Shown here: positions 39,062 to 62,800 of the stretch, piece by piece
Position numbering within the stretch: position 1 is the stretch's first letter
Layout of the letters: each line of letters opens with the position of its first letter
Source of the DNA: Moorella sp. E308F
GTDB lineage: Bacteria > Bacillota > DSM-521 > Neomoorellales > Neomoorellaceae
Length of the DNA stretch: 64,000 bases
Reading direction: 5' to 3'
Assembly: GCF_006538365.1 (NCBI RefSeq)
Contig: NZ_BJKN01000003.1
Coordinates: 329,965 to 393,964, forward strand
The notes under the pieces: model-generated
What the model saw: the letters and a program-made list of their open reading frames with translations, nothing else
What the model was told of the DNA's origin: nothing
Database searches by the model: none
Made by a program: the position numbers and the translations under genes

Positions 39062-39385
39062 AGGTATGGTATGGCTGCCGCCCCAGCCATGAAGTATGAA
39101 AATATATGGCTGGGAAAAGGGGCTGGAGGGTACAGGCGGAGGGCGACTTGGTTCGAGGCGTCAGCAAACTCAGCGAAGCCGTAGCGAGGCGGCGGTGAAC
39201 GGGATGGGGATCGTAACGTGGCTTAGGAATAAGAAGTAGCACACCCCGTGATGCATGATTGAAACGCCAAAAGTTTAGCCACCCCCGCCGCCGAGCAAGG
39301 CTGAGCGCTAAGTTTGCTAGCTGAGAACCACCGGAGCCCGGAGGCTGTACCCTCCAGCCTGAAGGAAGCTGGGTTATAACTTTCA
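39062..39385 (+). ncRNA. Structured RNA-like element D between flgC and fliE
   Basis: A non-coding stretch of about 320 bases with extensive pairing potential. A 5' hairpin (ATGGCTG/CAGCCAT) is followed by ATGAAAAT, then by a 15-base segment at 39121-39135 (GGCTGGAGGGTACAG) whose exact complement CTGTACCCTCCAGCC lies at 39345-39359. Inside this helix are further long-range pairs (AGCAAACT with AGTTTGCT, GCGGCGG with CCGCCGC). The motif GCGACTTGGTTCGAG is shared with three other elements in the operon. CTGA follows the closing helix. It shares an exact 41-base block with element C. I find no protein-coding frame. See the findings for the family hypothesis. Confidence 0.7.
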
Positions 39386-39399
39386 GGAGGAAAATGCAC

Positions 39400-39711
39400 A
39401 TGCTCCTTTCACCTGTATCCCTTTTAATGCCGGCTCCCCTTCAGGAGAGCCAGCAGTCCCGGCCCGTTCCCCAGGGTACAGGAGCCGTAGCCGGGTCTTT
39501 TGCAGAAATCCTGATGGAAAAACTGGGGGAAATCAATACCCTGCAGCAGCAGGCCGATGCCCTCACCCAGGAGTACCTGGCCGGTAAAATCGAGGACGTT
39601 CACCAGGTCATGCTGGCCCTGGAACAGGCCAACCTTTCCCTCCAGCTGGCCGTGCAGGTGCGCAATAAGGTCGTGGAGGCTTACCAGGAAATCTCCCGCA
39701 TGCAGTTCTAG
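39400..39711 (+). CDS. fliE: Flagellar hook-basal body protein FliE
   Basis: 103 residues from ATG 39400, nine bases after AGGAGG; ATG 39394 is only three bases from it. SFAEILMEKLGEINTLQQQA, QEYLAGKIEDVHQVMLALEQ and ANLSLQLAVQVRNKVVEAYQ then EISRMQF form the typical FliE C-terminal helices. FliE joins the MS-ring to the rod. It is the first gene after element D, whose 3' end supplies the sequence up to the ribosome binding site. Confidence 0.93.
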   Translation: MLLSPVSLLMPAPLQESQQSRPVPQGTGAVAGSFAEILMEKLGEINTLQQQADALTQEYLAGKIEDVHQVMLALEQANLSLQLAVQVRNKVVEAYQEISRMQF

Positions 39712-39888
39712 TGCCGTCCTTGAGCCGGGTCGGCAGCAGCGCGGCACTTGAGGGGAGAGCAGTTGCTTGCCCTGGACCGGCAGGGGGCGGTGCGGCAGGC
39801 GGTGAAAGTTAGGTGCAGGGGAGGCATTTTTCCTGGTAGTGATATTAATTATGGTTAGCAAAGCAATATTGCCTTCCGGGAGCTCAAA

Positions 39889-41466
39889 ATGAAGCTTAAA
39901 CAAATTCTGGACAGGATAAAAAATTTCTGGCAGGGTTTAACTCCCGGGCGGCGTTCGGCCCTCCTGGCCATCAGTATAGCCGCTCTGCTGGGTGGCGCCT
40001 TTTTGCTGCAGTGGCTGCTGAAGCCCCAGTACGCACCACTGTTTACCAATTTGCAGCAGCGTGATGCGGCGGCGGTAGTGGAAAAGTTGAAAGAAATGAA
40101 GGTGCCCTACCGGCTGGCCGGCGAGGGGACGACCATCCTGGTGCCCAAGGACCAGCTCTACCAGCTGCGCCTGGACCTGGCCAGTGCCGGGGTTTTAAAC
40201 AGCGGCCAGGGGTTTGAACTCTTTGACCAGAACAAGCTGGGGATGACCGATTTTGAGCGCAATCTAGATTACCAGCGCGCCCTCCAGGAAGAGCTGCGGC
40301 GGACCATCGTTGCCCTGGACGAAGTGGAAGACGCCAGGGTGCACCTGGTCATTCCCCAGCCCAGCGTCTTTCTACAGGAACAGCAGCCGCCTTCGGCGGC
40401 GGTAATGCTAAAACTTAAACCCCTGGCCCGTTTAAAACCGGAACAGGTCAAGGGCATCATGGAGCTGGTGGCGGCCAGCGTAGCGGGCCTCAAGCTCGAG
40501 AATATCCGCGTTATTGATATGTACGGCAACGTCTTGAGTGACGGCCTGGCCGGCAGCGACGCGGCGCCCTTAAGCCAGAAGCAACAAATCCAGATGGAAC
40601 TGAAGAGACAGTATGAAAGGGACCTGGAACAGCGATTGCAAGCCATGCTGACCCAGATCCTGGGTCCAGGTAAAGCTGTGGCCATGGTCACCGCCGACCT
40701 GAACTTCGACCAGCAGGAAATTAAGCAGACGGTGTGGGGCAAGGAAGGCGCTTTGAGGAGCGAGCAAGTTAAAACGGAGCAGGGCAGTACCGGCGGCACC
40801 GGTGGACCGGCGGGGACGCCGGCCAACACCCAGCCTCCGGTATACCAGGCCCTTAACCCGGCAACGGGGAATTATAATAAATCCGATACTGTTCATAACT
40901 ATGAGCTTGACCAGACCCAGACCCATACCATCGTGGCTCCCGGCCAGGTAAGGCGGCTTTCTACGGCGGTGGCTGTCAACGGCCCGGTGACCCCGGCCCT
41001 GAGAACCCAAATACAAAATATCGTCGCCGCTGCTATAGGCTTCGACCAGGCCCGGGGCGATCAGATTAACGTTGAACCAATACCCTTTGACAACTCCCTG
41101 CAGCAGCAGATGGCGGCGGAGATGGAGGCCCGGCAGCAGCGCCAGCAACTGCTCCAGCAGTACCTTCTCTGGGGAGCGGCAGGGCTGGGGGGCTTGCTCT
41201 TACTGGTGGTGCTGGTCATGCTTCTGTTACGCCGCCGGCGACAGAAGACTTTACAAGCGGGGCTCCCCGGCGCGGCATTAACAGCTGGCATGCAGGCTGG
41301 TGTACCGGTAGAACCCCTGGTAGTTGAGCCGGTAGAACCGGTGGATGTGGAAAAAGAACGCCAGGAAGCCGAACGCAAGGCCAAACTGGAGCGCTTACGG
41401 GAAATCATCCGCCAGCGGCCGGAGGATGCAGCCTTACTTATCAGGGCCTGGCTGGCGGAGGACTAG
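39889..41466 (+). CDS. fliF: Flagellar M-ring protein FliF
   Basis: 525 residues from ATG 39889. A membrane helix near residue 25-45 (ALLAISIAALLGGAFLLQWL) and one near 430-450 (LLWGAAGLGGLLLLVVLVML) flank the periplasmic ring-building motifs: YAPLFTNLQQRDAAAVVEKL, FELFDQNKLGMTDFERNLDY and QRALQEELRRTIVALDEVED. The cytoplasmic C-terminus (RQRPEDAALLIRAWLAED) binds FliG. It forms the base ring of the motor. The 177 bases before it contain no other gene. Confidence 0.95.
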   Translation: MKLKQILDRIKNFWQGLTPGRRSALLAISIAALLGGAFLLQWLLKPQYAPLFTNLQQRDAAAVVEKLKEMKVPYRLAGEGTTILVPKDQLYQLRLDLASAGVLNSGQGFELFDQNKLGMTDFERNLDYQRALQEELRRTIVALDEVEDARVHLVIPQPSVFLQEQQPPSAAVMLKLKPLARLKPEQVKGIMELVAASVAGLKLENIRVIDMYGNVLSDGLAGSDAAPLSQKQQIQMELKRQYERDLEQRLQAMLTQILGPGKAVAMVTADLNFDQQEIKQTVWGKEGALRSEQVKTEQGSTGGTGGPAGTPANTQPPVYQALNPATGNYNKSDTVHNYELDQTQTHTIVAPGQVRRLSTAVAVNGPVTPALRTQIQNIVAAAIGFDQARGDQINVEPIPFDNSLQQQMAAEMEARQQRQQLLQQYLLWGAAGLGGLLLLVVLVMLLLRRRRQKTLQAGLPGAALTAGMQAGVPVEPLVVEPVEPVDVEKERQEAERKAKLERLREIIRQRPEDAALLIRAWLAED

Positions 41467-41477
41467 GGGTGGCTTGA

Positions 41478-42488
41478 TTGGCGAAGCAGAAAGCTCTTTC
41501 CGGCCTGGAAAAGGCAGCGATTTTTTTGATTACCATCGGGCCGGAGTTATCATCTTTAATTTTAAAACAAATGGCCCAGGAAGATATTGAGCGCATTACT
41601 TACCAGATTGCCAACACTACCTCTATCGACCCGGCAACCATGCAGCAGATTGTCGATGAGTTCCTGCAGCTAAGCGATGCCCATACGTTCATCCTCCAGG
41701 GAGGGATGAAATATGCCCGCGAGGTGCTGGAAAAAACCCTGGGGCCGGCGCGGGCTTCGGAAATTATAAAAAAACTTATGGCCACTTCCAAAATCCGGCC
41801 TTTCAATATGATCCGCAAGGCCGACCCCAAGCAGCTGGTGAACTTTATTTACAACGAGCATCCCCAGACTATAGCCCTGATCCTGGCCTACCTGGAACCC
41901 GAGCAGGCAGCGATAGTGTTGGGTGCCCTGCCGGACCAGGTACAGGCCGACGTGGCCAAAAGGATTGCCCTCATGGAGCGGGCTTCCCCGGAAACGCTGC
42001 GGGAGCTGGAGAGCATCATGGAACAGCGTTTGTCCTCCCTGGTGGAGCAGGACTTTGCCGTGGCCGGCGGTTTAAAAAGCCTGGTGGACATCTTGAACCG
42101 GGCCGACCGCAGCACTGAGCGGACCATCCTGGAAGCTCTGGAACAGGATGACCCTGAACTGGCCGACGAGATCCGCAAGCGCATGTTTGTCTTTGAAGAC
42201 ATCCTGACCCTGGATGATACCTCAATCCGCAGGGTTCTCAGGGAAGTCGATCTCAAAGACCTGGCCCTGGCCCTCAAGGCGGCCAGCGAAGAAGTGGCCA
42301 ACCGCATTTACCGCAACCTCTCCAAGCGGGCCGGCGAGATGCTCAGAGAGGATATCGAGTACATGGGGCCGGCGCGCCTGCGGGATGTGGAAGAAGCCCA
42401 GCAGCGTATTGTCCAGATTATCCGGCGTCTAGACGAAGCCGGCGAGATTATCATCGCCCGGGGAGGCGAAGACGCCATTGTTGTCTAG
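41478..42488 (+). CDS. fliG: Flagellar motor switch protein FliG
   Basis: 336 residues from TTG 41478 with AGGGGTGG upstream. SGLEKAAIFLITIGPELSSL begins the domain that binds FliF; MIRKADPKQLVNFIYNEHPQ and TIALILAYLEPEQAAIVLGA are the middle domain; the C-terminal torque helix with charged residues is visible (MFVFEDILTLDDTSIRRVLR, EVDLKDLALALKAASEEVAN). FliG contacts the stator MotA to generate torque. Its stop lies ten bases inside fliH. Confidence 0.95.
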   Translation: MAKQKALSGLEKAAIFLITIGPELSSLILKQMAQEDIERITYQIANTTSIDPATMQQIVDEFLQLSDAHTFILQGGMKYAREVLEKTLGPARASEIIKKLMATSKIRPFNMIRKADPKQLVNFIYNEHPQTIALILAYLEPEQAAIVLGALPDQVQADVAKRIALMERASPETLRELESIMEQRLSSLVEQDFAVAGGLKSLVDILNRADRSTERTILEALEQDDPELADEIRKRMFVFEDILTLDDTSIRRVLREVDLKDLALALKAASEEVANRIYRNLSKRAGEMLREDIEYMGPARLRDVEEAQQRIVQIIRRLDEAGEIIIARGGEDAIVV

Positions 42489-43302
42489 GATACTCAAAAA
42501 AGCTGGAACTGATGGGGGTGAAAGAGAGATCCCCCTGCGCACCCTGCAGGTGGATTCAGCTATAGATTTAACCGGAGAGCAAGAGACAGGTAGTCCCGAA
42601 GACCGGACCGTAGTGGAAGCTGCCGCCCAGGAAGTGACTGCTGCCCGGGAAAAGGCGGCCGCCATCCTGGAGCAGGCCCGCCGGGAGGCGGCGGCCATTA
42701 GGGAGGCAGCCTTGGAGGAGAGGCAGAAAGCCCTGGAAGAGGGGCGTGCTGCCGGGGAGGCCAAGGGCTATCAGGAGGGCCTGTCCCGGGCGGAGGAGGA
42801 AGCTCTTAGTATCCGCCGGGAGGCCGAAGCCGCCCGGGAAGAAGCCCGGCAGGTTCTGGCAGAAGCGCAGAGGGCTTATCAGGAAACAATCAGCGCCGCT
42901 GAGGGTGACATTATCGAACTGGCCCTGGCCATTGCCAGTAAAATAATAGGCCAGGAAATAGAACTGCGGCCGGACCTGGTGGTAGAAATGGCCCGCCAGG
43001 CAATCCGCCAGGTGGCCGAGGGGCAGAATTACATAATTTACGCCTCCCCGGAGGCAGCCGGGACTATCCGGCAGCGCCGGGCCGAACTCCTGGCGGAAGC
43101 AGCGCCGGGGGCGCGGCTCCAGGTAATTGCCGACCCGAGCTTTAAGGCTGGGGGATGCCGGGTAGAGACGGAAAACGGCTTTATCGACGCCGGCGTCGAC
43201 AGCCAGCTGGAAGAACTGAAAAAGATCTTCCGGTTGGACGCCCGTGCTGCTCATGCAGCACCTGCAGGAGAGGCCTTTTTCCGGGCGGGTGGTCGGCCGT
43301 GA
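42478..43302 (+). CDS. fliH: Flagellar assembly protein FliH
   Basis: About 274 residues from TTG 42478 (or TTG 42481), overlapping fliG. A long charged coiled coil ([20 protein letters not shown] to [14 protein letters not shown]) is followed by the conserved C-terminal domain: [40 protein letters not shown] and [17 protein letters not shown]. FliH regulates the FliI ATPase and docks it to the export gate. The stop overlaps the fliI start as GTGA. Confidence 0.9.
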
Positions 43303-44609
43303 GCCTGGCCATCGACTTCACTACCTACCGGCAGCGCCTGGCATCAGCTAGCCTCTGGCGCCGGGGAGGCAAAGTTACCCGGGTGACGGGCCTCACCATC
43401 GAAGCCCGGGGCCTCAAGGCTGCCGTAGGTGAGCTTTGCTATATTTATAACAACGGTGCGGCCCCTGTCGTGGCCGAGGTGGTCGGCTTCCGGGAAGAAG
43501 TGACCCTCCTCATGCCCCTGGGGGAGCTGGAGGGCATTGGACCCGGCTGTCGGGTGATGGCTGCCGGCCACGGTCACCTCATCCCGGCGGGTAGGGAGCT
43601 GATGGGCCGGGTCCTGGACGGCCTCGGACGGCCGATGGATGGGAGGCCCCTTGCAGGGGACGCTCTCCAGCCGGTCAACAATTCTCCGCCCCATCCCCTG
43701 GCGCGGCGGCGGATTAAAGAGGTCCTGGCCACCGGGATCAAGGCTATCGACGGCCTCCTCACCTGCGGCTGCGGCCAGCGGGTGGGCATCTTTGCCGGCA
43801 GCGGGGTGGGCAAGAGCACCCTGCTGGGGATGATTGCCCGCCACAGCACTGCCGATATCAATGTCATTGCCCTTATCGGCGAGCGGGGCCGGGAGGTACG
43901 GGACTTTATCGAAGGCGACCTGGGACCGGAAGGCCTGTCCCGTTCTGTGGTAGTGGTCGCTACTTCCGACCAGCCGGCCCTGGTACGCATTAAAGGTGCC
44001 TTTACAGCGACGGCCATTGCCGAGTATTTCCGCGACCAGGGGCAAAACGTCCTCTTGATGATGGACTCTCTCACCCGCTTTGCCATTGCCCAGCGGGAGG
44101 TGGGGCTGGCCATTGGCGAGCCGCCAGCCACCAGGGGATATACCCCTTCCGTCTTTGCTTCCCTGCCCCGGCTGGTGGAAAGGGCCGGCAACGGGGCCAA
44201 AGGTTCCATTACCGGCCTGTACACGGTGCTGGTGGAAGGCGATGATATGAACGAGCCGGTGGCTGATGCTGTGCGCGGCCTCCTGGACGGCCACATCGTC
44301 CTTTCCCGGAAGCTGGCGGCCAGGAACCACTACCCGGCCATTGACGTCCTGCAGAGCATCAGCCGCCTTATGCCGGAAATTACTTCCAGAGAACAGCAGG
44401 ATAAAGCGGGATACCTGCGGGAGTTGCTGGCTGCCTACCAGGAGGCGGAGGATTTAATTGAGATAGGGGCTTACCAGCACGGGTCAAACCCGAAGGTAGA
44501 CGCGGCGCTGCAATATTATGATGCCATCCAGTCTTTTCTGCGCCAGGACGTAGATGAATACTATGATTTTAACGCCACCCTGGCCGGGCTGTCATCTATA
44601 TTTACTTAA
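43299..44609 (+). CDS. fliI: Flagellum-specific ATPase FliI
   Basis: 436 residues from GTG 43299. The hallmark motifs are all present: [33 protein letters not shown], Walker [14 protein letters not shown] (about residues 165-177), [13 protein letters not shown], and Walker [21 protein letters not shown] with [20 protein letters not shown]. It is a hexameric F1-like ATPase that helps unfold export substrates. Earlier in-frame codons lie inside fliH and are rejected because the GTGA overlap at 43299 is the usual coupling. Confidence 0.95.
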
Positions 44610-44670
44610 AGAATAATATCCCAGCTCTAACTTCTCATTTTCTCCATTTCATTTTCGGAGGCGTTACCCG

Positions 44671-45105
44671 GTGGCCGGTTTTCGCTTTTCCCTGGAAAGG
44701 GTACGTTCCTACAAGGCATCCCTGGAGGAACAGCTAAAACTGCAGCTGGCCGCGGCCCGCCGCCGCCAGGAAGAAGAAGAGAAGCGCCTGGAACATTACC
44801 GCCGGCTGCGGGCCTGCCGCCAGGCCCTTCAGGGGGAGTTAACGGCAGGTGATTTACTCCAGGAAGCAGCGCTGCTGGAAGCCCTGGACAGCCGCATTGC
44901 CGGCCAGCAGGAAAAGGTGGCCCGGGCTCGGCTGGCAGTGAGGGAGAAATGCGACCAGGTGCAGGTGGCCATGCGGGAGAGGAAAGTCCTGGACCGCCTG
45001 CGCGACCGCCAGCTGGCTATCTACCGCTACGACCTGGCCCGGGAGGAACAAAAACAAATAGATGAGGTGGCAGGAAGCCGCTGCCATCGCTGCTCGGGTG
45101 AATAA
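44671..45105 (+). CDS. fliJ: Flagellar export protein FliJ
   Basis: 144 residues from GTG 44671 with GGAGGCG upstream. Nearly all coiled coil, opening FRFSLERVRSYKASLEEQLK, the standard FliJ front (F-x-x-x-L-x-x-V-x-x-x-K), and ending with REEQKQIDEVAGSRCHRC. FliJ sits in the centre of the FliI ring, like the gamma subunit of F-ATPase, and links it to FlhA. Conservation is low in this family; position after fliI supports the call. Confidence 0.87.
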   Translation: MAGFRFSLERVRSYKASLEEQLKLQLAAARRRQEEEEKRLEHYRRLRACRQALQGELTAGDLLQEAALLEALDSRIAGQQEKVARARLAVREKCDQVQVAMRERKVLDRLRDRQLAIYRYDLAREEQKQIDEVAGSRCHRCSGE

Positions 45106-45144
45106 CCTTTCAATAATATACATCGCCGGAAGGGGGTGAAAAAA

Positions 45145-46686
45145 ATGACCGTACAGGCTGTAACAAGAACTGCCGGCTGGGAAGCCCCGGTCCGGGAACG
45201 GGATTGGCGTTCAGGCGCAGGAAGCGATTTTGCCCTTTACCTGGCCGGCCTGCTGCACCGGCCTGGCTTAACCCAGTTTGCCGGCAGGCAGGAACTGTCC
45301 GGGCAAGATGAGGGCTGGCAAGAAACGGCCGGTAAAGAGGTCGATGCTGTAAGACCCGGGGGCGCCGGCAGGGGCAAAGCCGCTACCATGCCGGAGGACC
45401 GGGCGGGCCACAAGGTTCGCGAAACAGGACCGGAGGGTGCCGGTGAAGACCGGACACCGTCCGGGGTGAAATCCCGGCAAGGCGAAAACCAGTCTGTTGC
45501 TTTGAAGCAGGAGGAAGCCCCGGCGGGACAGCAGGGAGCTAAAAAGGCGGCAGGAGATCCTGTCGCGTCAGGCGAGCCTGATGCAGCTGCTGGTAAAGCG
45601 TCCGCTGCCACCGCCAGGGCCGGCAACTCGCACCGGAGCAACATGCCGGCGGGTAACGGGGCACCGGCAGGTGAGGTTAATCTCTTAAACAAGGAGGGAC
45701 CCGGTATCCTTTTTCCCGGCCGGAAAGCAGCCGGCTCTGAGGCTGTCACCGGCAAGTTCGCTGCGTCGGCGGCCACAGCTGCCCAGGGCAAAAAAGTGGC
45801 TGCGCTGGCGGCCGGGGAAGGAGCGGCGGTCTTGGCTGCCGCCGGTACCTCCGGAGCAGCGGGGGAAGAGGCAAGCCTTGCGCCGGAAGGTGTACTCATG
45901 GCCAGGGGAGATGGCGCGCCGGACTATGGCTCTAAAATAGAGGCCGCGCGCGGCTCAAAGGTCCCTGGCAGCAGGGAGGGTTTCCCGCAACCGCAGGGGA
46001 TAACCGAAGGACAGGGCCAGGTAAAAGGTGGCGGCGCGTCATTTGCCCGGGCCGCCGGGGACTGGGCCGGTGCTCCATATGTGCAAGATGCCTTTAACCC
46101 TGCTAATCGCGACCTCGGAAGCAGCCCTGCCAGGGGGCAGAGGGGAACCGGGACTGCCGGTGGGCCGGGGATAACCGGTAACGACAGCATAGGGGCCGGA
46201 CAGGGAAGCTTTCCAGCCCTTTTCCCGGGGAACGGCCAGCAGGCCGGTGGGGTTGTATTACCTGTAAGCAACCTGCCGGGGGTTTTGGCCACTATCATGG
46301 CTTCAGCCCGGATGAGCCGGTCCGGCAGCCAGCAGGAATTAGAAATCCAGCTCCAGCCGGAAAGCCTGGGGAATATGAAGCTTAAGGCCACCCTGGAAGG
46401 AGGTCGGCTGGTCCTGCACCTGCTGGTAGAAAACAGCGAAGCCGCCCGGGCCCTGCAGGCGGCGGTGCCGGAAATGCGCCAGGCTGTTGCCCAGCAAGGT
46501 TTACGCCTGGACCAGGTCCAGGTCCAGGTGGGCGGTGAAGGACCCGGCAGCGGTTCTCAGGCCGGGGATAGCGGCGAACAGAGCCGGGGATCACCGGGCT
46601 GGTACCGGGGAATGCCGGGCTGGGCAGGACATGAGGAAAAGGAAACAGTTTCTGCCTCCTGGTACCGCCTGGATTACCTGGCGTAG
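45145..46686 (+). CDS. fliK: Flagellar hook-length control protein FliK
   Basis: 513 residues from ATG 45145 behind AAGGGGGTG. The first 400 residues are low-complexity, rich in Ala, Gly, Glu and Pro, as expected of the ruler part. The conserved C-terminal domain is visible: QELEIQLQPESLGNMKLKAT, EGGRLVLHLLVENSEAARAL and LRLDQVQVQVGGEG. FliK measures hook length and switches FlhB to filament export. Position between fliJ and flgD is canonical. Long minus-strand frames over this gene are composition shadows. Confidence 0.9.
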   Translation: MTVQAVTRTAGWEAPVRERDWRSGAGSDFALYLAGLLHRPGLTQFAGRQELSGQDEGWQETAGKEVDAVRPGGAGRGKAATMPEDRAGHKVRETGPEGAGEDRTPSGVKSRQGENQSVALKQEEAPAGQQGAKKAAGDPVASGEPDAAAGKASAATARAGNSHRSNMPAGNGAPAGEVNLLNKEGPGILFPGRKAAGSEAVTGKFAASAATAAQGKKVAALAAGEGAAVLAAAGTSGAAGEEASLAPEGVLMARGDGAPDYGSKIEAARGSKVPGSREGFPQPQGITEGQGQVKGGGASFARAAGDWAGAPYVQDAFNPANRDLGSSPARGQRGTGTAGGPGITGNDSIGAGQGSFPALFPGNGQQAGGVVLPVSNLPGVLATIMASARMSRSGSQQELEIQLQPESLGNMKLKATLEGGRLVLHLLVENSEAARALQAAVPEMRQAVAQQGLRLDQVQVQVGGEGPGSGSQAGDSGEQSRGSPGWYRGMPGWAGHEEKETVSASWYRLDYLA

Positions 46687-46747
46687 CTATTATCACCAAC
46701 CCATCCAGCTCGTTTTAAATAACACCTTGAAGCAGTAGGAGGGACCA

Positions 46748-47188: not shown

Positions 47189-47244
47189 GTGGCCGCCCGG
47201 GGCCGGTTGCAGGGTTCAATAAAGTGCAGGGCGGGTGAGCGCTT

Positions 47245-48518: not shown

Positions 48519-48566
48519 TCTTTTCGCCTTAGAGACAGTAGTGACTGTAAAGCGTTATTTTCGAAG

Positions 48567-48902
48567 GAGCCACTCATGGCGGGGAGCTGCAACCATCGAG
48601 AGCATGAAAATTCCGGGCTGGCATTTGTCTGAAGCGAGCGACTTGGTCTGAGCGGCTAAGCGGCCGCAGGCTGTGCCGAGGGATGATAAGCGGGGCCGAG
48701 GACAGGAGGTCCGAGGCCGGATTCTAAAGGCAAAAATGCCGAATAGGCCGGGAACCCCGCCTTAAGCCCTGGCTGACCCAGCACTCAACTCGCAACGGTT
48801 TTGTTGCGAAGAGACACCTATTACAAACGAGTTGAGTGCTGGGCGCTCCGCGAGGACCACGGAGCGAGCCAGACAAAGCCAGCCGGTGATAAGTTCTTTT
48901 CG
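48567..48902 (+). ncRNA. Structured RNA-like element A between flgE and flbD
   Basis: About 335 non-coding bases, related along their whole length to element B at 62463-62800. Order of parts: GAGCC, a 5' hairpin built on CATGG and CCAT, the shared CATGAAAATT, GGCTGGCATTTGTCTG pairing over about 15 bp with CAGACAAAGCCAGCC at the 3' side (one bulged A), GCGACTTGGTCTGAG, a nested GC-rich domain (GGGGCCGAGGAC, GGTCCGAGGCC), and a perfect 16-bp hairpin (48777-48792 with 48828-48843). GTGA follows the closing helix, and the end reads AAGTTCTTTTCGA. A stretch resembling this 3' end (GTGACT then TTATTTTCGAAGGAG) also lies just before the element at 48541-48569. Confidence 0.7.
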
Positions 48903-48915
48903 AAGGAGGGCGGCA

Positions 48916-49131
48916 ATGCATATGATCAAGGTTACCACCCTGGATAAGCGGGAGATAATCCTCAATGCCGAACTCATCGAGCGCATCGAGAGTGTTCCCG
49001 AAACAGTTATTACCCTTACCAGCGGTAAAAAGGTTTTAGTAAATCAGACGGCAGATGAAGTAATAGCCCGGGTTATTGCCTACCGGCGCCAGATCCTCCA
49101 GCCGGCGAGCACCCAGGATGAGGTGGAATAA
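48916..49131 (+). CDS. flbD: Flagellar protein FlbD
   Basis: 71 residues from ATG 48916 with AAGGAGGG five bases upstream; ATG 48922 is possible. IKVTTLDKREIILNAELIER and IESVPETVITLTSGKKVLVN, then QTADEVIARVIAYRR, match the small FlbD (SwrD) family. In Bacillus the homologue SwrD raises motor torque, probably by acting on the stators; here it precedes motA by three bases, in line with that role. Its ribosome binding site lies at the 3' edge of element A. Confidence 0.88.
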   Translation: MHMIKVTTLDKREIILNAELIERIESVPETVITLTSGKKVLVNQTADEVIARVIAYRRQILQPASTQDEVE

Positions 49132-49134
49132 AGG

Positions 49135-51606: not shown

Positions 51607-51608
51607 GT

Positions 51609-54907: not shown

Positions 54908-54923
54908 AGAGCCATTTATGGAG

Positions 54924-55070
54924 GAGCCCCTCATGGTGGCTGACGCCTCCACGAGCGAACCATGAAAATGGAGGCTGAGGCAAAAGGCTGGAGGGTACAG
55001 GCGGAGGGCGACTTGGTTCGAGGCGTAAGTAAACTAATTTTGGGTGGGGATATGTCCCCACCAGAAGGCA
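54924..55070 (+). ncRNA. Truncated structured element C between flhB and flhA
   Basis: The front of the same kind of element as D: GAGCC, a hairpin TCATGG/CCATGA, CATGAAAAT, and a 41-base block (54986-55026) identical to 39121-39161 including GCGACTTGGTTCGAG. After GTAAACT the relation ends: neither the complementary 3' strand of the closing helix nor the central domain is present. Instead a GTGGGGATATGTCCCCAC hairpin lies at 55045-55062. It is a 5' fragment left by deletion. A reading frame that crosses it into flhA (from 54962) is not real; flhA has its own start at 55112. Confidence 0.65.
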
Positions 55071-55111
55071 CATTTTTGGCAGAACGCTATTTCCGGAGGA
55101 AAAACTGCTCT

Positions 55112-57184
55112 ATGGCAGCAAATACCGGCCTGCTGGGCGCCTTAAGGCGCCTCACCCCGTACAACGACATCCTGGTGGCGGCCCTGGTCCTGGGGGTAGT
55201 CATGCTTATCGTCATTCCCGTCAGCCCCCTGGTCATGGACATCCTGCTTATCATCAACCTGGGCGTCAGCATGGTTATCCTTCTGACAACCATGTTCGTC
55301 TCCCGGAGCCTTGACTTTTCCGTCTTTCCGTCCCTTTTGCTGGTGGTGACCCTGTTCCGCCTGTCCCTCAACATCTCTTCCACAAGGCTTATTTTAAGCC
55401 GGGCCGATGCCGGTCATGTTATCGAAACCTTCGGCAGCTTTGTCGTTCGGGGGAATTATATCGTCGGCTTTGTCATATTTCTTATCATTACCATCATCCA
55501 GTTTATCGTCATAACCAGCGGCGCCCAGCGGGTGGCCGAGGTGGCGGCCCGCTTTACCCTGGACGCCATGCCCGGCAAGCAGATGAGCATCGATGCTGAC
55601 CTCAATGCCGGCCTGTTAACGGAGGATGAAGCCCGGGCCAAACGGCGGGAACTGCAGCGGGAAGCCGACTTTTACGGTGCCATGGACGGCGCCAGCAAGT
55701 TCGTCCGGGGGGATGTCATTGCCGGCCTGATCATTACCGCCATTAACATCCTGGGGGGGCTGGCCATCGGTGTCTGGCAGCTGAAGATGCCCTTTATGGA
55801 AGCCCTGCATACCTATACCCGCCTGACCATTGGCGACGGCCTGGTTAGCCAGCTGCCGGCCCTCATGGTTTCCACCGGGACCGGCATCCTGGTGACCCGC
55901 TCCGGGGCTATGGACAATTTTGGCAGAGAGGTAATCGGCCAGCTAACGGGCTTTCCCCGTATTGCCGGTCTGGTGGCAGCCATCCTTTTCCTGATGGGCC
56001 TTTTGCCGGGGATGCCCCACCTGACCTTTTTTATAATGGCCGGCGGGGTGGGCTATGCCGCCTATGCCCTGGCCAGGGAGGAAAAGATGCAGGGCCAGCG
56101 CCGGCAGGAAGCGGTTGCCGCCCAGAAGGCTTCCCAGCGCCAGCCGGAGAATGTTTTGAGCTTTTTCCAGGTGGACCCCCTGGAAGTGGAAATCGGCTAC
56201 GGCCTGATTCCCCTGGCCGATGAAACAGAAGGTGGCGACCTGCTGGACCGCCTGGCGGCCGTGCGGCGCCAGTGTGCCACCGAGATGGGCATATACGTCA
56301 GGCCCATTCGCATCCGGGACAACCTGCAGCTGCCACCCCATGGCTATATCTTCAAACTGCGGGGCGTGGAAGCGGCCCGGGGAGAAATCCAGCCTGGCTA
56401 TCTTCTGGCCATGAATCCGGCCGGCAGCGACGGACCGCCGGGGGGCATACCTACCCGGGAACCCACCTTTGGCCTGCCGGCCTGGTGGGTACCGGCGACC
56501 AGGCGCCAGGAAGCGGAACTGGCCGGTTTCACCGTTGTCGACGCTACTACCGTCCTCATTACCCATTTGACGGAATTTATCAAAGCCCATGCCGCTGAAC
56601 TCATGGGCCGCCAGGAAACCAGGGAACTCCTGGATAAAATCAAGGAGAATCACCCGGCAGTAGTCGAGGAATTGGTGCCCAATCTCCTGTCGGTAGGTGA
56701 GATACAGAAAGTACTGGCCGGCCTGCTCCAGGAACAGGTGCCCATTCGTGACCTGGTTAGTATCCTGGAAGCCCTGGCCGACGCCGCCCGTACCAGCCGG
56801 GATCCGGATTACCTTCTCGGGGCGGCGCGCCAGGCCTTGAGCCGCACTATCAGCCGCCAGTATGCCCGGGAGGGTAAGCTCACGGCCATTACCCTCCACC
56901 CCCAGCTGGAGCAGAAGCTGGCGGAGGCCATCCAGCCCACCTCCCAGGGTAATTTCCCGGCCCTGACCCCGGAGGAGGGCCGGGAACTTTTGAACAGGCT
57001 GGGCCGGGCCGTGGAGAAAGCCGCCACCGGCGGCGTCCAGCCGGTGATCTTATGCTCGGCCAGGATCCGCCTGCCCCTGCGGCGGTTGCTCCAACGTTCT
57101 TTACCTTATGTCCCGGTCCTGGCTTATAACGAGCTGGAACCCAGCCTGGAAATTGAGGCCGTAGAGGCGGTGAATGTGGTGTGA
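55112..57184 (+). CDS. flhA: Flagellar export gate protein FlhA
   Basis: 690 residues from ATG 55112, with CGGAGGA ten bases upstream. Eight membrane helices in the first about 300 residues (DILVAALVLGVVMLIVIPVS and others), with the conserved LLLVVTLFRLSLNISSTRLI and the FHIPEP-type loop GAMDGASKFVRGDVIAGLII. The cytoplasmic half reads DPLEVEIGYGLIPLADETEG, FTVVDATTVLITHLTEFIKA and PVILCSARIRLPLRRLLQRS. FlhA receives chaperone-substrate complexes and couples the ion gradient to export. Its last four bases overlap flhF. Confidence 0.95.
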   Translation: MAANTGLLGALRRLTPYNDILVAALVLGVVMLIVIPVSPLVMDILLIINLGVSMVILLTTMFVSRSLDFSVFPSLLLVVTLFRLSLNISSTRLILSRADAGHVIETFGSFVVRGNYIVGFVIFLIITIIQFIVITSGAQRVAEVAARFTLDAMPGKQMSIDADLNAGLLTEDEARAKRRELQREADFYGAMDGASKFVRGDVIAGLIITAINILGGLAIGVWQLKMPFMEALHTYTRLTIGDGLVSQLPALMVSTGTGILVTRSGAMDNFGREVIGQLTGFPRIAGLVAAILFLMGLLPGMPHLTFFIMAGGVGYAAYALAREEKMQGQRRQEAVAAQKASQRQPENVLSFFQVDPLEVEIGYGLIPLADETEGGDLLDRLAAVRRQCATEMGIYVRPIRIRDNLQLPPHGYIFKLRGVEAARGEIQPGYLLAMNPAGSDGPPGGIPTREPTFGLPAWWVPATRRQEAELAGFTVVDATTVLITHLTEFIKAHAAELMGRQETRELLDKIKENHPAVVEELVPNLLSVGEIQKVLAGLLQEQVPIRDLVSILEALADAARTSRDPDYLLGAARQALSRTISRQYAREGKLTAITLHPQLEQKLAEAIQPTSQGNFPALTPEEGRELLNRLGRAVEKAATGGVQPVILCSARIRLPLRRLLQRSLPYVPVLAYNELEPSLEIEAVEAVNVV

Positions 57185-58350
57185 AGATTAAACGCTATCT
57201 TGCCCGTGATATGCAGGAAGCCTACCTGGCCATCCGCCGTGACCTGGGGCCGGAGGCGGTTATTGTGGCCACCCGCCGGGTACGCCAGCCGGGACTAAAG
57301 GGCTTTTTCTTGCCCCCCCGCATGGAAGTGACGGCGGCCCTGGAGGAGACGCCGGCAAGGAAACTGCCGGAACCGGCGGCGCCGGCAGGTAAGACGGCGT
57401 TACAGGCAGGGGCCGGCAAGACGGTGGTAGCACCGGCCGGGTCGGTCAACCCTGCCGGAGGAGGAAATAACGGCCGTCACAGCCTGGAGGTGCTGCAGCG
57501 GGAACTGGCCGAGATTAAAGCCGCCCTGAACCGCCTGGTACGGCCCGGCAGCGCTCCGGTACCGGAACAACTGTTAACCTTAAGGGAGCGCCTGCTGGCC
57601 CAGGAGCTGGAGGAGGAGCTGGTGGCCTTCCTTTTAAATGGCATTGAGGCCACCGCCGGGAAAGAGATTATTGCCGATGTCATCCGTACCCGCCTGGCCG
57701 ACCACTTAAGCCATCAGGTGGCGTCCCCGTCCAGACAGCGGGTTCAGGCCTTTATCGGCCCCACCGGCGTGGGCAAGACAACTACCCTGGCTAAGATAGC
57801 GGCCCGCTACAGCCTTTATCAGGAGCAAAAGGTCGGCCTGATAACCCTGGATACTTACCGTATCGGGGCCGTGGATCAGCTCAAGACCTATGCCGAAATT
57901 ATGGGCCTGCCCCTGGAGGTGGCCATGACGCCGCGGGAGTTGCGTGCATCCCTGGAGAACTTAAGACACTGCGATGTAGTTTTAGTTGATACAGCCGGCC
58001 GGGCACCGGAAAACAAAGCTATGCTGGCGGAAACGAGGGGGTTCCTGGAGGTTGTCCCTGAGCGGGACGTATACCTGGTCTTGAGCTGCGCCACCAGGCG
58101 CCAGGACCTGCTCCAAGCCGTAGAAAATTTCCGCAGCCTCAAATACAACCGGTTGATTTTCACCAAACTTGACGAAACATGCTGCCCGGGGGTAATGCTC
58201 ACCGTAGCCGCGGCGGCGGGAGTACCCCTGGCTTATATAACTACCGGCCAGGATGTGCCTGATGACCTGGAAGCGGCCGATCCCCACCTCCTGGCCCGGC
58301 GCATCTGGGAAGCGGTGGCTGAAGATGGACCAGGCGGGCAGGTTGCGTAA
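57181..58350 (+). CDS. flhF: Flagellar SRP-like GTPase FlhF
   Basis: 389 residues from GTG 57181, overlapping flhA. The N-terminal 50 residues (MKIKRYLARDMQEAYLAIRR, DLGPEAVIVATRRVRQPGLK) are the FlhF start; then a variable Ala/Pro-rich linker. The GTPase domain has G1 GPTGVGKTTTLAKIA (about residues 194-208), TLDTYRIGAVDQLKTYAEIM, G3 DVVLVDTAGRAP and FTKLDETCCPGVMLTVAAAA. FlhF places flagella at the correct site and helps recruit FliF. It works with FlhG, which follows and overlaps it. Confidence 0.95.
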   Translation: MKIKRYLARDMQEAYLAIRRDLGPEAVIVATRRVRQPGLKGFFLPPRMEVTAALEETPARKLPEPAAPAGKTALQAGAGKTVVAPAGSVNPAGGGNNGRHSLEVLQRELAEIKAALNRLVRPGSAPVPEQLLTLRERLLAQELEEELVAFLLNGIEATAGKEIIADVIRTRLADHLSHQVASPSRQRVQAFIGPTGVGKTTTLAKIAARYSLYQEQKVGLITLDTYRIGAVDQLKTYAEIMGLPLEVAMTPRELRASLENLRHCDVVLVDTAGRAPENKAMLAETRGFLEVVPERDVYLVLSCATRRQDLLQAVENFRSLKYNRLIFTKLDETCCPGVMLTVAAAAGVPLAYITTGQDVPDDLEAADPHLLARRIWEAVAEDGPGGQVA

Positions 58351-59167
58351 ACTGGTATACAGACGGCTGGAAGAGCGGTCCAGGGTAATTGCCATAGCCA
58401 GCGGTAAAGGCGGCGTGGGCAAGACCAATATTGCCTTAAATCTGGGCCTGATCCTGGCCCGCCAGGGTCTGCGGACCCTCCTCTTTGATGCCGACCTGGG
58501 CCTGGCCAATGTGGATATCCTCATGGGCCTGGTACCCCGTTACAGCCTGAAAGAAGTCATCGGCGGGCAGTGTACTTTAGAAGAAGTGATTATCCGCGGC
58601 CCTCATGACCTGCTCCTGGTGCCGGGGGCCTCCGGTATCCAGGAACTGGCCGACCTGGACCCCCCGGCCCGCGACCGGCTTATTCATGACCTGGCGTTTC
58701 TAGCGACTAAGGTGGATATAATCCTGGTCGATTCTGGTGCCGGCATTTCCCGGACGGTTTTCAGCTTTGCAGCTGCCGCCGGAGAAGCCATTGTGGTAGC
58801 AACGCCGGAACCTACTTCCATAACCGATGCCTATGGTTTAATCAAAGGGTTGCAGCGTTTAAAAGTAAGCATGCATCTTATCGTTAACAGGGCTACCAAT
58901 AAGCTGGAGGGGCAGCAGGCCGCCGGGCGACTCCAGGGTGCCTGCCGCCGTTTTTTGCAGCTGGAGCTGCCGCTCCTGGGGATTATTCCCGAGGACTCCC
59001 GGGTAGGTCAGGCGGTGCGCTGCCAGCAGCCATTCAGCGAATTGTTTCCCCGTTGCCCGGCGGCCCGGGCCCTGGAAGAAGCCGCCGCCAAACTTCAGGG
59101 CCAGGAACTGCCGGCAGGCCGGAGCCAGGGATTCTGGCAGCGCCTGGGCCGTTTGCTGGGAAGATAA
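58325..59167 (+). CDS. flhG: MinD-like ATPase FlhG (YlxH/FleN)
   Basis: 280 residues from ATG 58325, overlapping flhF by 26 bases. MDQAGRLRKLVYRRLEERSR contains the short activator segment that stimulates FlhF GTPase. The deviant Walker A IASGKGGVGKTNIALNLGL (residues 24-42), LLFDADLGLANVDILMGLVP and IILVDSGAGISRTVFSFAAA complete the MinD fold. It limits flagellar number and antagonises FlhF. The C-terminal membrane-binding helix may be QGFWQRLGRLLGR. Confidence 0.93.
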   Translation: MDQAGRLRKLVYRRLEERSRVIAIASGKGGVGKTNIALNLGLILARQGLRTLLFDADLGLANVDILMGLVPRYSLKEVIGGQCTLEEVIIRGPHDLLLVPGASGIQELADLDPPARDRLIHDLAFLATKVDIILVDSGAGISRTVFSFAAAAGEAIVVATPEPTSITDAYGLIKGLQRLKVSMHLIVNRATNKLEGQQAAGRLQGACRRFLQLELPLLGIIPEDSRVGQAVRCQQPFSELFPRCPAARALEEAAAKLQGQELPAGRSQGFWQRLGRLLGR

Positions 59168-59181
59168 GAAGGGGGGGTATC

Positions 59182-59856
59182 ATGGCCAGGCCAAACTTTA
59201 TTATGATAAATCAACCCATAATCATCAAAACTCCTGGCAGTAAAGATCTCCGCACCATTATTCAGGATACGCGGGAAGACGGCTTTGCCGTCCTTGCTCC
59301 GGGGAGTGATGAACTGGTCCTGGCACCGGGGAACGTTGTCGAGGTTGCCTGCAACCGGCAGGATGCCCGTTATGAATTCACTACTAAAGTACAGCGTTAC
59401 CTGCCGGGAGAGCCCCCCCTTTACTACCTGGCCTACCCGGACGATTATCGGCGCATCCAGGCGCGCTCCCATGTGCGGGCCAAGGCGGCCCTGGAATTTC
59501 GTTATGCCGTCTGGCTGAAGGACGACTGGCCCTACCGCCCGCCCCGGCCCTATAAAAAGGGGGTAACGGTAGATATAAGCGGCGGCGGTGCGCAACTGGT
59601 CCTCCGGGACCCCGTTGAGGTGGGCGACCTCCTTTACCTGGAACTTCACCTGCCCGGTCGCCGCCGCCATATGCCCATGCGCCTGGCGGGGCGCGTCAAG
59701 CGCGTGGCCCCGCGGGAAATAGACGGCGTGACGCGTTATGAAGTTGGTGTGGCCTTTGAGGGTATCAGCGAAAGGCAGGAAGACCAAATCGTTGCCTTTG
59801 TTTTCCAGCGGTTGCTAGAAGAAAGGCGCCGGGGAGAGAGAGAAAATGGCAGTTAA
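59182..59856 (+). CDS. PilZ-domain c-di-GMP receptor, flagellar brake type (YcgR/YpfA-like)
   Basis: 224 residues from ATG 59182, behind AAGGGGGGG. The N-terminal half (FAVLAPGSDELVLAPGNVVE, VACNRQDARYEFTTKVQRYL) is the YcgR-N (PilZN) domain. The PilZ half has RRIQARSHVRAKAALEFRYA with the Arg motif and VTVDISGGGAQLVLRDPVEV with the D-x-S-G-G-G motif, which together bind c-di-GMP. Such proteins bind the motor and slow it when c-di-GMP is high. With the riboswitch at 37936 the operon has both transcript-level and protein-level c-di-GMP control. Confidence 0.9.
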   Translation: MARPNFIMINQPIIIKTPGSKDLRTIIQDTREDGFAVLAPGSDELVLAPGNVVEVACNRQDARYEFTTKVQRYLPGEPPLYYLAYPDDYRRIQARSHVRAKAALEFRYAVWLKDDWPYRPPRPYKKGVTVDISGGGAQLVLRDPVEVGDLLYLELHLPGRRRHMPMRLAGRVKRVAPREIDGVTRYEVGVAFEGISERQEDQIVAFVFQRLLEERRRGERENGS

Positions 59857-60604
59857 GGATAGCGCCATGTGGGCCGCGTACCTGGCCGGAAAGGGAGATG
59901 CCGGGCGCCGGGAACTGGTCCTCAAGTACCTGCCCCTGGTGAAATACCATGTGGGCCGCCTGGCAGTCAAACCGCCGCGGCACCTGGACCAGGAAGACCT
60001 GGTTGGTTATGGCATAATCGGGTTGCTGGAGGCCATTGACCGTTATGATCCTTCCCGGGGCGTTAACTTTGAAAGCTTTGCCTCCCAGCGCATTCGCGGG
60101 GCTATCCTCGATGCCCTGCGCCAATCCCACTGGGCCCCCCGCACCCTGGTGGAAAAGCTGCGCCGGGTGAGCCAGGTGTACCGCCGCCTGGAGCAGGAAC
60201 AGGGGAGCGAGGTAAGTGATGCAGTGGTGGCGGCGGCGGCAGGGATAACGGTGGATGAGCTCAAGGAACTCTTGGAGCGGGGTTCCCAGATGGCTGTCCT
60301 TTCCCTGGAAGACTTTCTTTTTGACCGGGAAGGGGAGGAGGGTTCAACCCGGGGAGAACTGCTGGCCGATCCCCAGAGCCCGGATCCTGCCGGCCGTTAT
60401 GAGCAGGAGGAACTCCGCCGCGCCCTGATAGAGGGTCTCCAGCATTTAAACGATAAAGATCGCCTGGTCCTCACTCTGTATTATTACGAAGGCTTGACCT
60501 TAAAGGAGATCGGCAAAATACTGGGAGTCTCCGAATCCCGGGTCTGCCAGCTCCACGGCCGGGCAATCTTAAACCTACGCCGCTATTTAGCCGATTTTAT
60601 GTAG
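59846..60604 (+). CDS. fliA: RNA polymerase sigma factor for flagellar genes, FliA/SigD
   Basis: 252 residues from ATG 59846, overlapping the PilZ gene by 11 bases. Region 2: LVLKYLPLVKYHVGRLAVKP, DLVGYGIIGLLEAIDRYDPS, FESFASQRIRGAILDALRQS. Region 4: LNDKDRLVLTLYYYEGLTLK, EIGKILGVSESRVCQLHGRA. It recognises the TAAA-N15-GCCGATAT promoters seen before flgL, fliC and flaG. Being inside the riboswitch-led operon, the late genes also come under c-di-GMP control indirectly. Confidence 0.94.
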   Translation: MAVKDSAMWAAYLAGKGDAGRRELVLKYLPLVKYHVGRLAVKPPRHLDQEDLVGYGIIGLLEAIDRYDPSRGVNFESFASQRIRGAILDALRQSHWAPRTLVEKLRRVSQVYRRLEQEQGSEVSDAVVAAAAGITVDELKELLERGSQMAVLSLEDFLFDREGEEGSTRGELLADPQSPDPAGRYEQEELRRALIEGLQHLNDKDRLVLTLYYYEGLTLKEIGKILGVSESRVCQLHGRAILNLRRYLADFM

Positions 60605-61147
60605 GTGGTTAAAGTGGCATATCTCTTTTTAGTTACAGGAGCGATATTGATTGTAATTACCTGCCTGCCCGCTTTTAAGATACTACTGGGCGGGGAAGGG
60701 AACCGGGGGGCGCCGGCGGTTTGGGGTTTTGACTCCGAGGACGGCCAGGGGCAAACAGGTGGTGACGAACAGCTGGCCGAACGCCTGGCAACCCTCCAGG
60801 AAGAAGTAACCGCCCTTACGGCCAGACTGGAGGAGTTGACTGCCGCCTCCGAAGCGGTGCCAGGAACTTTTCGATCCTACCTGGCAACTGCCCTGGCGGA
60901 AGGGACTGCAGGAGCGGCAGCCACCGATCTTCAGAGGACGCCCGCCAGGCCGGCGGGAGAAAAAGCTGTACCCGAAAGGACAACGGCGGCCGGGCCGGCA
61001 GGGGGGACAACCCCTGGGCCGGAGACGTTAAACATTCAGGAGCAAATCCGCCTGGCCCATGCCGCCGGCGAGAGTATCGACAGCCTGGCGCGGCGGTATG
61101 GCCGGGGAAAGGGTGAAATCGCATTAATCCTCAACCTGAAGCGTTAA
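60605..61147 (+). CDS. Membrane-anchored coiled-coil protein, DUF6115/SwrB-like
   Basis: 180 residues from GTG 60605, right after the fliA stop (GTG 60614 possible). An N-terminal membrane helix (AYLFLVTGAILIVITCLPAF) is followed by a coiled coil (LAERLATLQEEVTALTARLE), a low-complexity Ala/Pro/Gly stretch and a small C-terminal helix-turn-helix-like motif, QIRLAHAAGESIDSLARRYG then RGKGEIALILNLKR. The plan and position after the sigma factor recall SwrB of Bacillus, which promotes assembly of the export apparatus. The homology is not strong by eye. Confidence 0.6.
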   Translation: MVKVAYLFLVTGAILIVITCLPAFKILLGGEGNRGAPAVWGFDSEDGQGQTGGDEQLAERLATLQEEVTALTARLEELTAASEAVPGTFRSYLATALAEGTAGAAATDLQRTPARPAGEKAVPERTTAAGPAGGTTPGPETLNIQEQIRLAHAAGESIDSLARRYGRGKGEIALILNLKR

Positions 61148-61215
61148 AGAAAAAAGGATTTTTTCTGGCTCCCTTCGGGCTGGGCCTGGGCCTGGGGTTT
61201 TTCCTGGCGGGGCTG

Positions 61216-61599
61216 ATGTTGCTTATTTTCCAGCACGGTCCCACCAGGGAGGAAATTATTGCCCGGGCCCGCGAATACGGTATGGTCTTCCGGGAGGAAG
61301 TAGTCCCTTTCGCGCCTGCCTCCGGGGATAATGCCCCGCCGGATCAAGGGATAAAACAACAGTCCGCCGGGCCGCAGCAGGCCGCTCCCGGGGATATGAA
61401 AGGTGAAATCCTGGTTACCATCCCGGCGGGGGCCGGCCTGGAGGATATTGCCGCCCTCCTGGAAAAAAAGGGCGTAGCTGCGGCCGCGGCCTTTGAAGCC
61501 GAGGTGCACCGCCAGGGCGTAGAACAGAAACTCAAGGCCGGCTCCTATTATCTCCCCGCCGGGGACATAAAGGAAATTATCAGGCGGTTAACCAGTTAG
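61216..61599 (+). CDS. MltG/YceG-N-like small membrane protein, start unresolved
   Basis: From ATG 61216 the product has 127 residues ending in a domain that resembles the LysM-like front of endolytic transglycosylase MltG: ILVTIPAGAGLEDIAALLEK then AEVHRQGVEQKLKAGSYYLP and GDIKEIIRRLTS. The same frame is open back to 61117 and encodes LKKKGFFLAPFGLGLGLGFF, a clear membrane helix that ATG 61216 would cut in half. No ATG, GTG or TTG exists there; ATT 61123 after AAAGGGTG is a conceivable start overlapping the gene before. The true protein is probably about 155 residues and membrane-anchored. Confidence 0.6.
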   Translation: MLLIFQHGPTREEIIARAREYGMVFREEVVPFAPASGDNAPPDQGIKQQSAGPQQAAPGDMKGEILVTIPAGAGLEDIAALLEKKGVAAAAAFEAEVHRQGVEQKLKAGSYYLPAGDIKEIIRRLTS

Positions 61600-61692
61600 T
61601 TAGCAAAAAAGCAGGGGCGGTAGTCATTGGGGGCTACTACCGCCAGTAAATGCCACTGTTGGCAGAAACATTTTCGGAGGGAGGGAAAACAA

Positions 61693-62463
61693 TTGTTAAG
61701 GGGTTTATATCTTTCCGCTACCGGCATGGTGGTCCAGGAACTGCGCCAGGATGTCATAACCAACAACCTGGCCAACGCCGCGACGAACGGCTTTAAGGTC
61801 GAGACGGCGACCATCCAGTCCTTTCCCGAGATGCTCCTCCAGCGCCTGGAAAAGGGCCGTGTCACCCCGTTAGGCTACTTTAGCCCCGGGGTTATGGTCG
61901 ACCGCATTCACACCAACTATACCCCCGGGCCCCTGGAAGAAACCGGCCGGGCCACGGACCTTGCCCTTGTGGATACTGCAGGGAGCACGCCGCCGGCTTT
62001 CTTCACCGTCCAGGCAGGGGGTACCGAGGCCTATACCCGCGGCGGTTCTTTCCAGGTAGATGCCTACGGCTTTTTAGTTACCCCGGAAGGCTACCCCGTC
62101 CAGGGAGAGTACGGCGCCGTCTACGTAGGCACGACCAACTTTAAGGTTGATAGCGGCGGTCAGGTATTGGTTAACGGTCAGGTTGTCGATCGGCTACGGA
62201 TTGTAACTTTTGATGCGCAAACCTTACCCCTGCTCCAACGCCAGGGCAACAATCTTTTTACAGCCCCCCAGGGGGTGCAGCCACTGCTGGCTGCTAATTT
62301 CCAGGTCAGGCAGGGGTGGCTGGAGAAGGCCAATGTCAACGTCGCCCGGGAAATGGTGGATATGCTGGCCGTCTTGAGGAGCTATGAGGCCAACCAGAAG
62401 GCCATCCAGGCCGCCGACCAGACCCTAGGCAAGAGCGTCAACGAAGTAGGGAGTTTACGGTAG
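61693..62463 (+). CDS. flgF: Flagellar rod/hook-basal body protein FlgF
   Basis: 256 residues from TTG 61693 behind GGAGGGA. LLRGLYLSATGMVVQELRQD, VITNNLANAATNGFKVETAT, AYTRGGSFQVDAYGFLVTPE, and the C-terminus QGWLEKANVNVAREMVDMLA with RSYEANQKAIQAADQTLGKS match the FlgF/FlgG group. It is the first of two such genes; by the usual order I call it FlgF. The stop codon forms the first bases of element B. Confidence 0.87.
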   Translation: MLRGLYLSATGMVVQELRQDVITNNLANAATNGFKVETATIQSFPEMLLQRLEKGRVTPLGYFSPGVMVDRIHTNYTPGPLEETGRATDLALVDTAGSTPPAFFTVQAGGTEAYTRGGSFQVDAYGFLVTPEGYPVQGEYGAVYVGTTNFKVDSGGQVLVNGQVVDRLRIVTFDAQTLPLLQRQGNNLFTAPQGVQPLLAANFQVRQGWLEKANVNVAREMVDMLAVLRSYEANQKAIQAADQTLGKSVNEVGSLR

Positions 62464-62800
62464 AGCCGTTCATGGCGGCGAGCAGCAACCATCGAAAGCA
62501 TGAAAATTGCGGCCTGGCATTTGTCTGTAGCGAGCGACTTGGTCCGAGCGGCGAAGCGGCCCTGGCGAAGCCGAGGAGTGAGGGCGGGGCCGAGGACAGG
62601 AGGTCCGAGGCCGGCCTTTGAGGCAAGGATGCCGAATAGGCCGGGAACCCCGCCCGAGCCAGAGGCTGAGCCAGCACTCAACTCACAAAGATACTGTTGG
62701 CAACTATAGCTATTTTTCGAATGAGTTGAGTGCTGGCCGCTCCGCGAGGACCATGGAGCGAGCCAGACAAAGCCAGCCTGTGACTAAGTTATTTTCGATA
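62463..62800 (+). ncRNA. Structured RNA-like element B between flgF and flgG
   Basis: About 335 bases, closely related to element A across the whole length: GAGCC, 5' hairpin with CATGG and CCAT, CATGAAAATT, CTGGCATTTGTCTG pairing with CAGACAAAGCCAG, GCGACTTGGTCCGAG, the GGGGCCGAGGAC/GGTCCGAGGCC domain, and a perfect 15-bp hairpin CCAGCACTCAACTCA/TGAGTTGAGTGCTGG. Where A has ACTCG with CGAGT in that hairpin, B has ACTCA with TGAGT, a compensatory change. The hairpin loop is unrelated between copies. GTGA follows the closing helix and the end reads AAGTTATTTTCGA. It starts on the flgF stop codon. No coding frame is evident. Confidence 0.7.

Follow-up and report, generated by a model that had tools for sequence, protein, structure and literature searches.

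TwoAYGGAY, an orphan since 2010, was classed that year as a probable RNA without a cis-regulatory role, with occurrences in the human gut, γ-Proteobacteria, and Clostridiales (PMC2864571). The loops look like CsrA sites, and it has been proposed to act as a CsrA sponge in Clostridia (PMC4333381). None of the sources that we found presents this RNA as mobile. Bacterial MITEs, such as BOX, RUP, Correia/nemis, and MITEAba12, are short, non-autonomous elements present in many copies, with terminal inverted repeats and target duplications. The widespread structured RNA of HEARO, the omega RNA of IscB, is carried by mobile elements that sometimes have no ORF. Finally, Clostridial members of the IS6 family with extra N-terminal domains are 1.2 to 1.8 kb long and mostly make 8-bp duplications, where these have been recorded (PMC6807381).

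The window, i.e. the whole 64-kb stretch of Moorella DNA analyzed here (64,000 nucleotides of genome G000; G and L numbers are our handles for genomes and loci), contains four related elements in one flagellar operon. Probably, each of them is a non-autonomous MITE-like mobile element with a conserved structured RNA, distantly related to TwoAYGGAY, as its body. They resemble bacterial MITEs in being short, non-autonomous, and present in many copies, and the related shells of G012/G013 and G025 also have terminal inverted repeats and target duplications. Unlike these MITEs, they have an RNA core conserved throughout the phylum and are always inserted in sense, in phase with a Shine-Dalgarno sequence (SD). 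This RNA had not previously been recognised here.

Insertions in the flagellar operon of Moorella

The first-pass annotation had placed the four elements just after the stop codons of flgC (D), flgE (A), flhB (C), and flgF (B), on the operon strand. We find them there, between flgC and fliE, flgE and flbD, flhB and flhA, and flgF and flgG, respectively, with refined limits:

39062-39384, + strand: element D, of a divergent subfamily, between flgC and fliE; core at 39143-39353
48562-48569, + strand: left target-site copy of A, CGAAGGAG; identical to the right copy, with the SD inside
48570-48900, + strand: element A, between flgE and flbD, with two CGAAGGAG copies around it; core at 48638-48761
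48778-48842, + strand: hairpin CCAGCACTCAACTC...GAGTTGAGTGCTGG in element A; this module takes the place of different hairpin loops in copies of G013
48901-48908, + strand: right target-site copy of A, CGAAGGAG; it is the SD of flbD (ATG at 48916)
about 54927-55092, + strand: element C, between flhB and flhA; core truncated
62458-62465, + strand: left target-site copy of B, CGGTAGAG; includes the stop codon of flgF
62466-62795, + strand: element B, between flgF and flgG; core at 62534-62654
62671-62736, + strand: hairpin CCAGCACTCAACTC...GAGTTGAGTGCTGG in element B
62796-62803, + strand: right target-site copy of B, CGATAGAG, 7/8 identical; followed by GAGGG and the flgG ATG at 62816

The 5' hairpin, the motifs ATGAAAAT and GCGACTTGGT..GAG, and the two unlike closing helices are also present as described. 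The elements do lie directly after stop codons, or, more precisely, inside the SD of the next gene, which they split: in Moorella insertions, the upstream target copy runs into the element, and the downstream copy serves the following gene as its SD. The absence of ORFs was nearly right, but several copies have an ATG after the split SD (GGAG-CCACTC-ATGG). The frames that it opens, of 9 to 123 codons, are unconserved, which rules out a conserved leader peptide.

We aligned the whole flagellar operon with that of ten relatives, and each of the four junctions proved to be empty or differently occupied in some of them. The gap between flgF and flgG is 17 nt in three sister species (G001, G002, G008) versus 352 nt in the window; the empty site of G002 reads ..TTTACGGTAGAGGAGGGCTAACAG-ATG, and the window has B between CGGTAGAG and CGATAGAG. 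Between flgE and flbD, A is found between two CGAAGGAG copies in both G000 and G002, a different element lies between the same two copies in G008, and G010 has a gap of 35 nt. The contents of the flhB-flhA and flgC-fliE junctions differ among species, the spacers of G001, G002, G008, and G010 at the latter, the site of D, being quite different. Since orthologous junctions lack B, or have a different element at the site of A, the elements are mobile insertions. Two marks of a MITE, target-site duplication and empty orthologous site, are found.

The family is dispersed and present throughout the genus, and BLAST finds copies in 13 of 21 genomes. Our copy counts come from sequence searches: in its own genome of 3.06 Mb, element A matches 30 pieces and element D 7 places (E<=0.01), well beyond what chance would give, and a 120-nt stretch with a short version matches 27 partly overlapping places. 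Other members precede thrS, dnaK, and leuS, among others (gene names from the encoded sequence). The presence of four copies in one operon, all in sense, could have suggested immobile leaders, native to the flagellar genes and variable among species. This is scarcely credible given the target duplications and the about 30 matching places across the genome, and the empty sites contradict it. The "mobile" of the first-pass annotation thus stands on target duplications, empty orthologous sites, and many copies.

The target is duplicated at 8/8 positions for A and 7/8 for B. A length of 8 bp suits A, B, and the copy at L088, whereas other Moorella copies have 4 to 8 of 8 positions duplicated, GGAG alone matches in several, and 5 bp also fits. 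By a loose test, 36 of 44 distinct Moorella copies are followed within 60 nt by a sense start that has an SD, and 7 have such a start in reverse upstream. The Moorella shell has no clear inverted repeats, we saw none shared with an IS, and a search of the window's own genome for the transposase gave no match.

Our reading of these junctions is that a transposase acting in trans would cut the target, insert the element, and leave a short target duplication. The Moorella target is the SD of the gene that follows, and the downstream copy of the duplication restores an SD, so that the operon would continue to work and the element would be transcribed within the operon mRNA.

Several other repeats accompany the elements. 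The core of C is broken by another palindromic repeat, and its orthologue in G001 is longer. Another palindromic repeat family, GATATGTCCCGGAGCC...GGGACATATC, occurs at flhB-flhA in G001, G002, and G008 and is also nested within the G001 copy of C. A small hairpin module, CCCAGCACTCAAC..GTTGAGTGCTGGG, substitutes for various core hairpin loops in several genera (loci L117, L119, and L292, and window positions 48778-48842 and 62671-62736), as if it were a mobile unit targeting loops. Elsewhere in the window, positions 8960-14995 hold an ORF of 2011 codons with at least 10 repeats at a spacing of about 260-270 nt, probably a large repeat surface protein, and a 98-nt direct repeat occurs at 3298-3395 and 5926-6023 with 99% identity.

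Transposon-like shells around the core

In relatives, the core is also found in transposon-like shells of at least three other kinds, which make duplications of 8 bp, of 9 bp, or of a terminator hairpin. In G012 and G013 it lies inside an element of 251-260 bp with ends GGTGCWTCCGAAA / TTTCGGAAGCATC and 13-bp inverted ends. Among 36 full copies, 15 have a perfect 8-bp duplication and 21 have at least 7/8, for a mean of 2.25/8 between copies, our control. Many draft contigs of these two genomes terminate within the elements, and such repeat-driven assembly breaks conceal more copies.

The position of this shell relative to translation signals is tight. The SD of the next gene starts ~13 nt past the 3' end, with its G-run at +13 to +17 (G in 81% at +14), and for most copies a start codon in sense lies 19-32 nt downstream. 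Nearly all other 3' ends, including those of 97-bp short versions, have an SD and a start codon facing the same way. Such phasing points to target choice and not to selection alone; the transposase may favour a G-run a few bases past the cut, with insertions in genes purged by selection.

The same 3' end is found on an element of 1.38 kb in G013 (L174:1701-3078); GGTCCTTCCGAATCAATGATGATAATGG, at the opposite end, is a near-match to the 5' end of the MITE. Two overlapping frames of this element encode zinc ribbons together with a DDE domain. It matches Pfam DDE_Tnp_IS240 above the cut-off (E 1.8e-8) and NCBIfam IS6 below it (E 1.2e-13, 51.2 bits for a cut-off of 125). It resembles the Clostridial clades of IS6/IS26 (PMC6807381) in its GG-starting ends, DDE_Tnp_IS240 domain, N-terminal zinc ribbons, and length of about 1.4 kb, and the shell shares their 8-bp duplication. 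It differs from them in its score under the IS6 cut-off and in being a single near-complete copy in two frames. Since the latter has no clear target duplication and two overlapping frames, it may be dead. Remnants of the IS were found in G001, G002, G013, and G016, and none in the window's genome. The IS6-like element is likely the engine of the G012/G013 shell, the best-dated one, which an IS6-kind DDE transposase would move; the window's shell would use a related enzyme.

The two remaining shells make other duplications. That of G025 has ends CTGAGTTATCCCC / GGGGATACGCCAG and 9-bp duplications, with on average 6.1 of 9 positions matching within copies versus 2.25 between them. That of G267/G392 has ends CAGACTGTAGACAAAC.. 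/ ..TTTGTCAACAAACTG and follows an intrinsic terminator (L289, L300-L302, L305, L306, L309), whose palindromic stem of 17-26 nt is duplicated; exact copies of the stem-loop measure up to 26 nt, as in AGAGAATGCCCCTTCAGGCATTCTCT. Duplications of such variable, hairpin-sized length are unusual. At L278 and L279, in two sister genomes (G104, G139), the same intergenic copy, bordered by inverted arms of 12-16 nt, is found in opposite orientations relative to the flanking genes.

These long palindromic duplications, together with the fixed sense orientation and the complexity of the conserved RNA, could be read as signs that the core is a guide, a ribozyme, or a template of the transposition machinery, in the manner of omega RNA, group II introns, or retrons. 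We give this very little weight, because a DNA transposon would account for the inverted ends, the duplications of 8-9 bp, and the IS6-like transposase with its matching ends, and because no HEARO, group II, or RT-associated RNA was matched in Rfam. Moreover, short versions without the core carry their own perfect duplications, which suggests that the core is dispensable for movement, although a later deletion between repeats may have produced them. HEARO (RF02033), group II, and other known RNAs were rejected for lack of an Rfam match, in the case of HEARO even at E 10, and our elements differ from those with omega RNA in having target duplications and no associated nuclease.

We had considered the repeats around the core, GAGCGAGC..GAGCGAGC and GCTGGCG..GCTGGCG, as target duplications of a nested insertion, and rejected this. 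The GAGCGAGC motif is also found at the core ends in unrelated genomes and can pair with itself through tandem G-A, and the short elements amount to deletions between GAGCGAGC or GCTGGCG repeats.

Covariation of the core and its relation to TwoAYGGAY

We built two covariance models of the core. The first, R1, from 42 copies of the class Moorellia, matches 46 of 399 genomes across the phylum (E 3.7e-22 for element A). The second, R2, was built from 19 cores, 17 of them from outside the window's family and almost all from other genera. In the 64-kb window it matches only B (118.5 bits, E 9e-31), A (65 bits, E 3e-16), and D (46.2 bits, E 4e-11), element C giving no match.

The 19 cores share a structure of seven helices in which 92.7% of the cells are paired, versus 73.9% after shuffling. 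For 30 of the 42 pairs both sides have changed with pairing kept. These two-sided changes make up 146 cells, whereas shuffles give 44 and slid controls no more than 21; the change events are fewer than the cells, since some rows of the alignment come from one genome. The annotation of the elements as non-coding RNA is thus well supported by covariation across the phylum. Our first hand-made structure, on Moorellia copies only, had given no more changed pairs than shuffles, and RNAalifold on the core alone gives a poor structure, since the partner strands are absent.

These helices could also be those of a DNA palindrome, maintained by hairpin-templated repair and never functional as RNA. The equality of G.U and A.C within Moorellia and the wholesale replacement of the closing arms would suit such a process. 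However, G.U exceeds A.C (35 versus 15) in the phylum-wide cores, as expected for an RNA of this strand, and the tandem G-A motifs and conserved loops also stand against it. We judge it improbable, and take the core to be an RNA.

The only Rfam match in the window is a c-di-GMP-I riboswitch 5' of flgB (37938-38073), and the window's copies of the element have none. Among the distant loci, 8 of 16 match TwoAYGGAY (RF01731) with 30-43 bits, most of them full-length (model positions 1-168), the best reaching 42.7 bits for a gathering threshold of 43. The core resembles TwoAYGGAY in its two adjacent hairpins with A-Y/R-GGA-type loops on a longer stem, in its presence in Clostridia, and in the tandem G-A pairs of the stem (PMC4333381), seen in L291 as GACC-GA-GGGC / GTCC-GA-GGTC and CC-GA-GGGC / GCCC-GA-GG. 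The two AYGGAY loops are found in the phylum-wide relatives (CAUGGAUG twice in L291), whereas in Moorella they are ARGGAN, one being lost in A, and have drifted (CAGGAUG, CAAGGAUG) below recognition by Rfam. For us, the window's core is a distant relative of TwoAYGGAY and no member of that family.

Resident copies, CsrA, and possible function

The closing helices of D and A, different in sequence but both paired, had been taken as strong evidence of selection. This does not hold for resident copies. Their arms differ wholesale between copies and between shells (D, A, L011, and others), a trait of the family, and in distant genomes most copies have perfect arms of their own; these differences are not stepwise compensation. 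Private changes affect paired and unpaired sites alike, at 1.41% versus 1.26% in G012/G013 copies (G.U:A.C of 15:17) and 1.4% versus 2.1% in Moorella copies (10:11), with G.U no commoner than A.C. The resident copies thus look neutral and drift without clear regard to pairing, so that unlike closing helices are no proof of selection on the window's copies, and the idea that these are domesticated and affect the next gene is not demonstrated. Shared variants are fewer at paired than at unpaired columns, which is where a constraint on the source elements, or the alignment of swapped hairpin modules, would show.

One protein encoded in the window is a candidate partner of the RNA:

19864-20103, + strand: csrA (79 aa), in the same flagellar gene cluster, outside the elements

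The gene lies 19 kb upstream of the elements (PF02599, E 4.4e-20 at G000:C3:349831-349983) and is present in 19 of 21 relatives. All 19 phylum-wide cores and 39 of the 42 from Moorellia keep the GGA of hairpin 2, which A has lost. Binding of CsrA by the core RNA is plausible: since the GGA is widely kept but lost in A, it would be a fair hypothesis for the family and a weak one for the window's copies.

The elements might accordingly be regulators that put downstream genes under post-transcriptional control and spread by host selection, the simplest version being that they present two GGA hairpins to CsrA, either in cis next to the SD or in the role of a sponge. The retention of the hairpin 2 GGA, the proposal already made for TwoAYGGAY in Clostridia, and the occurrence of csrA in the cluster and in relatives favour this. 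Nevertheless, it seems unlikely to us: private changes are neutral in pattern, the genes downstream of the copies are unrelated, A lacks the GGA loop, presence varies among species, and short core-less versions occur. The reading that we rate highest for the window is that its copies are most likely near-neutral passengers, retained for sparing the SD, with at most a local polarity or translation effect on the next gene.

On a broader scale, RNAs like TwoAYGGAY could be a nomadic regulatory domain, acquired repeatedly by unrelated MITE shells of Bacillota, that would bind CsrA or another host factor and, by insertion at an SD or terminator, act as a post-transcriptional switch for the adjoining gene. 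We regard this as quite unlikely. A shell that always inserts in sense, about 13 nt 5' of SDs, would be a rare case of a target directed by translation signals, and thanks to its empty sites any effect on operon expression could be measured directly. Were relatives of TwoAYGGAY shown to be cargo of several unrelated mobile elements, this would account for the scattered distribution of that RNA and would make its function directly testable.
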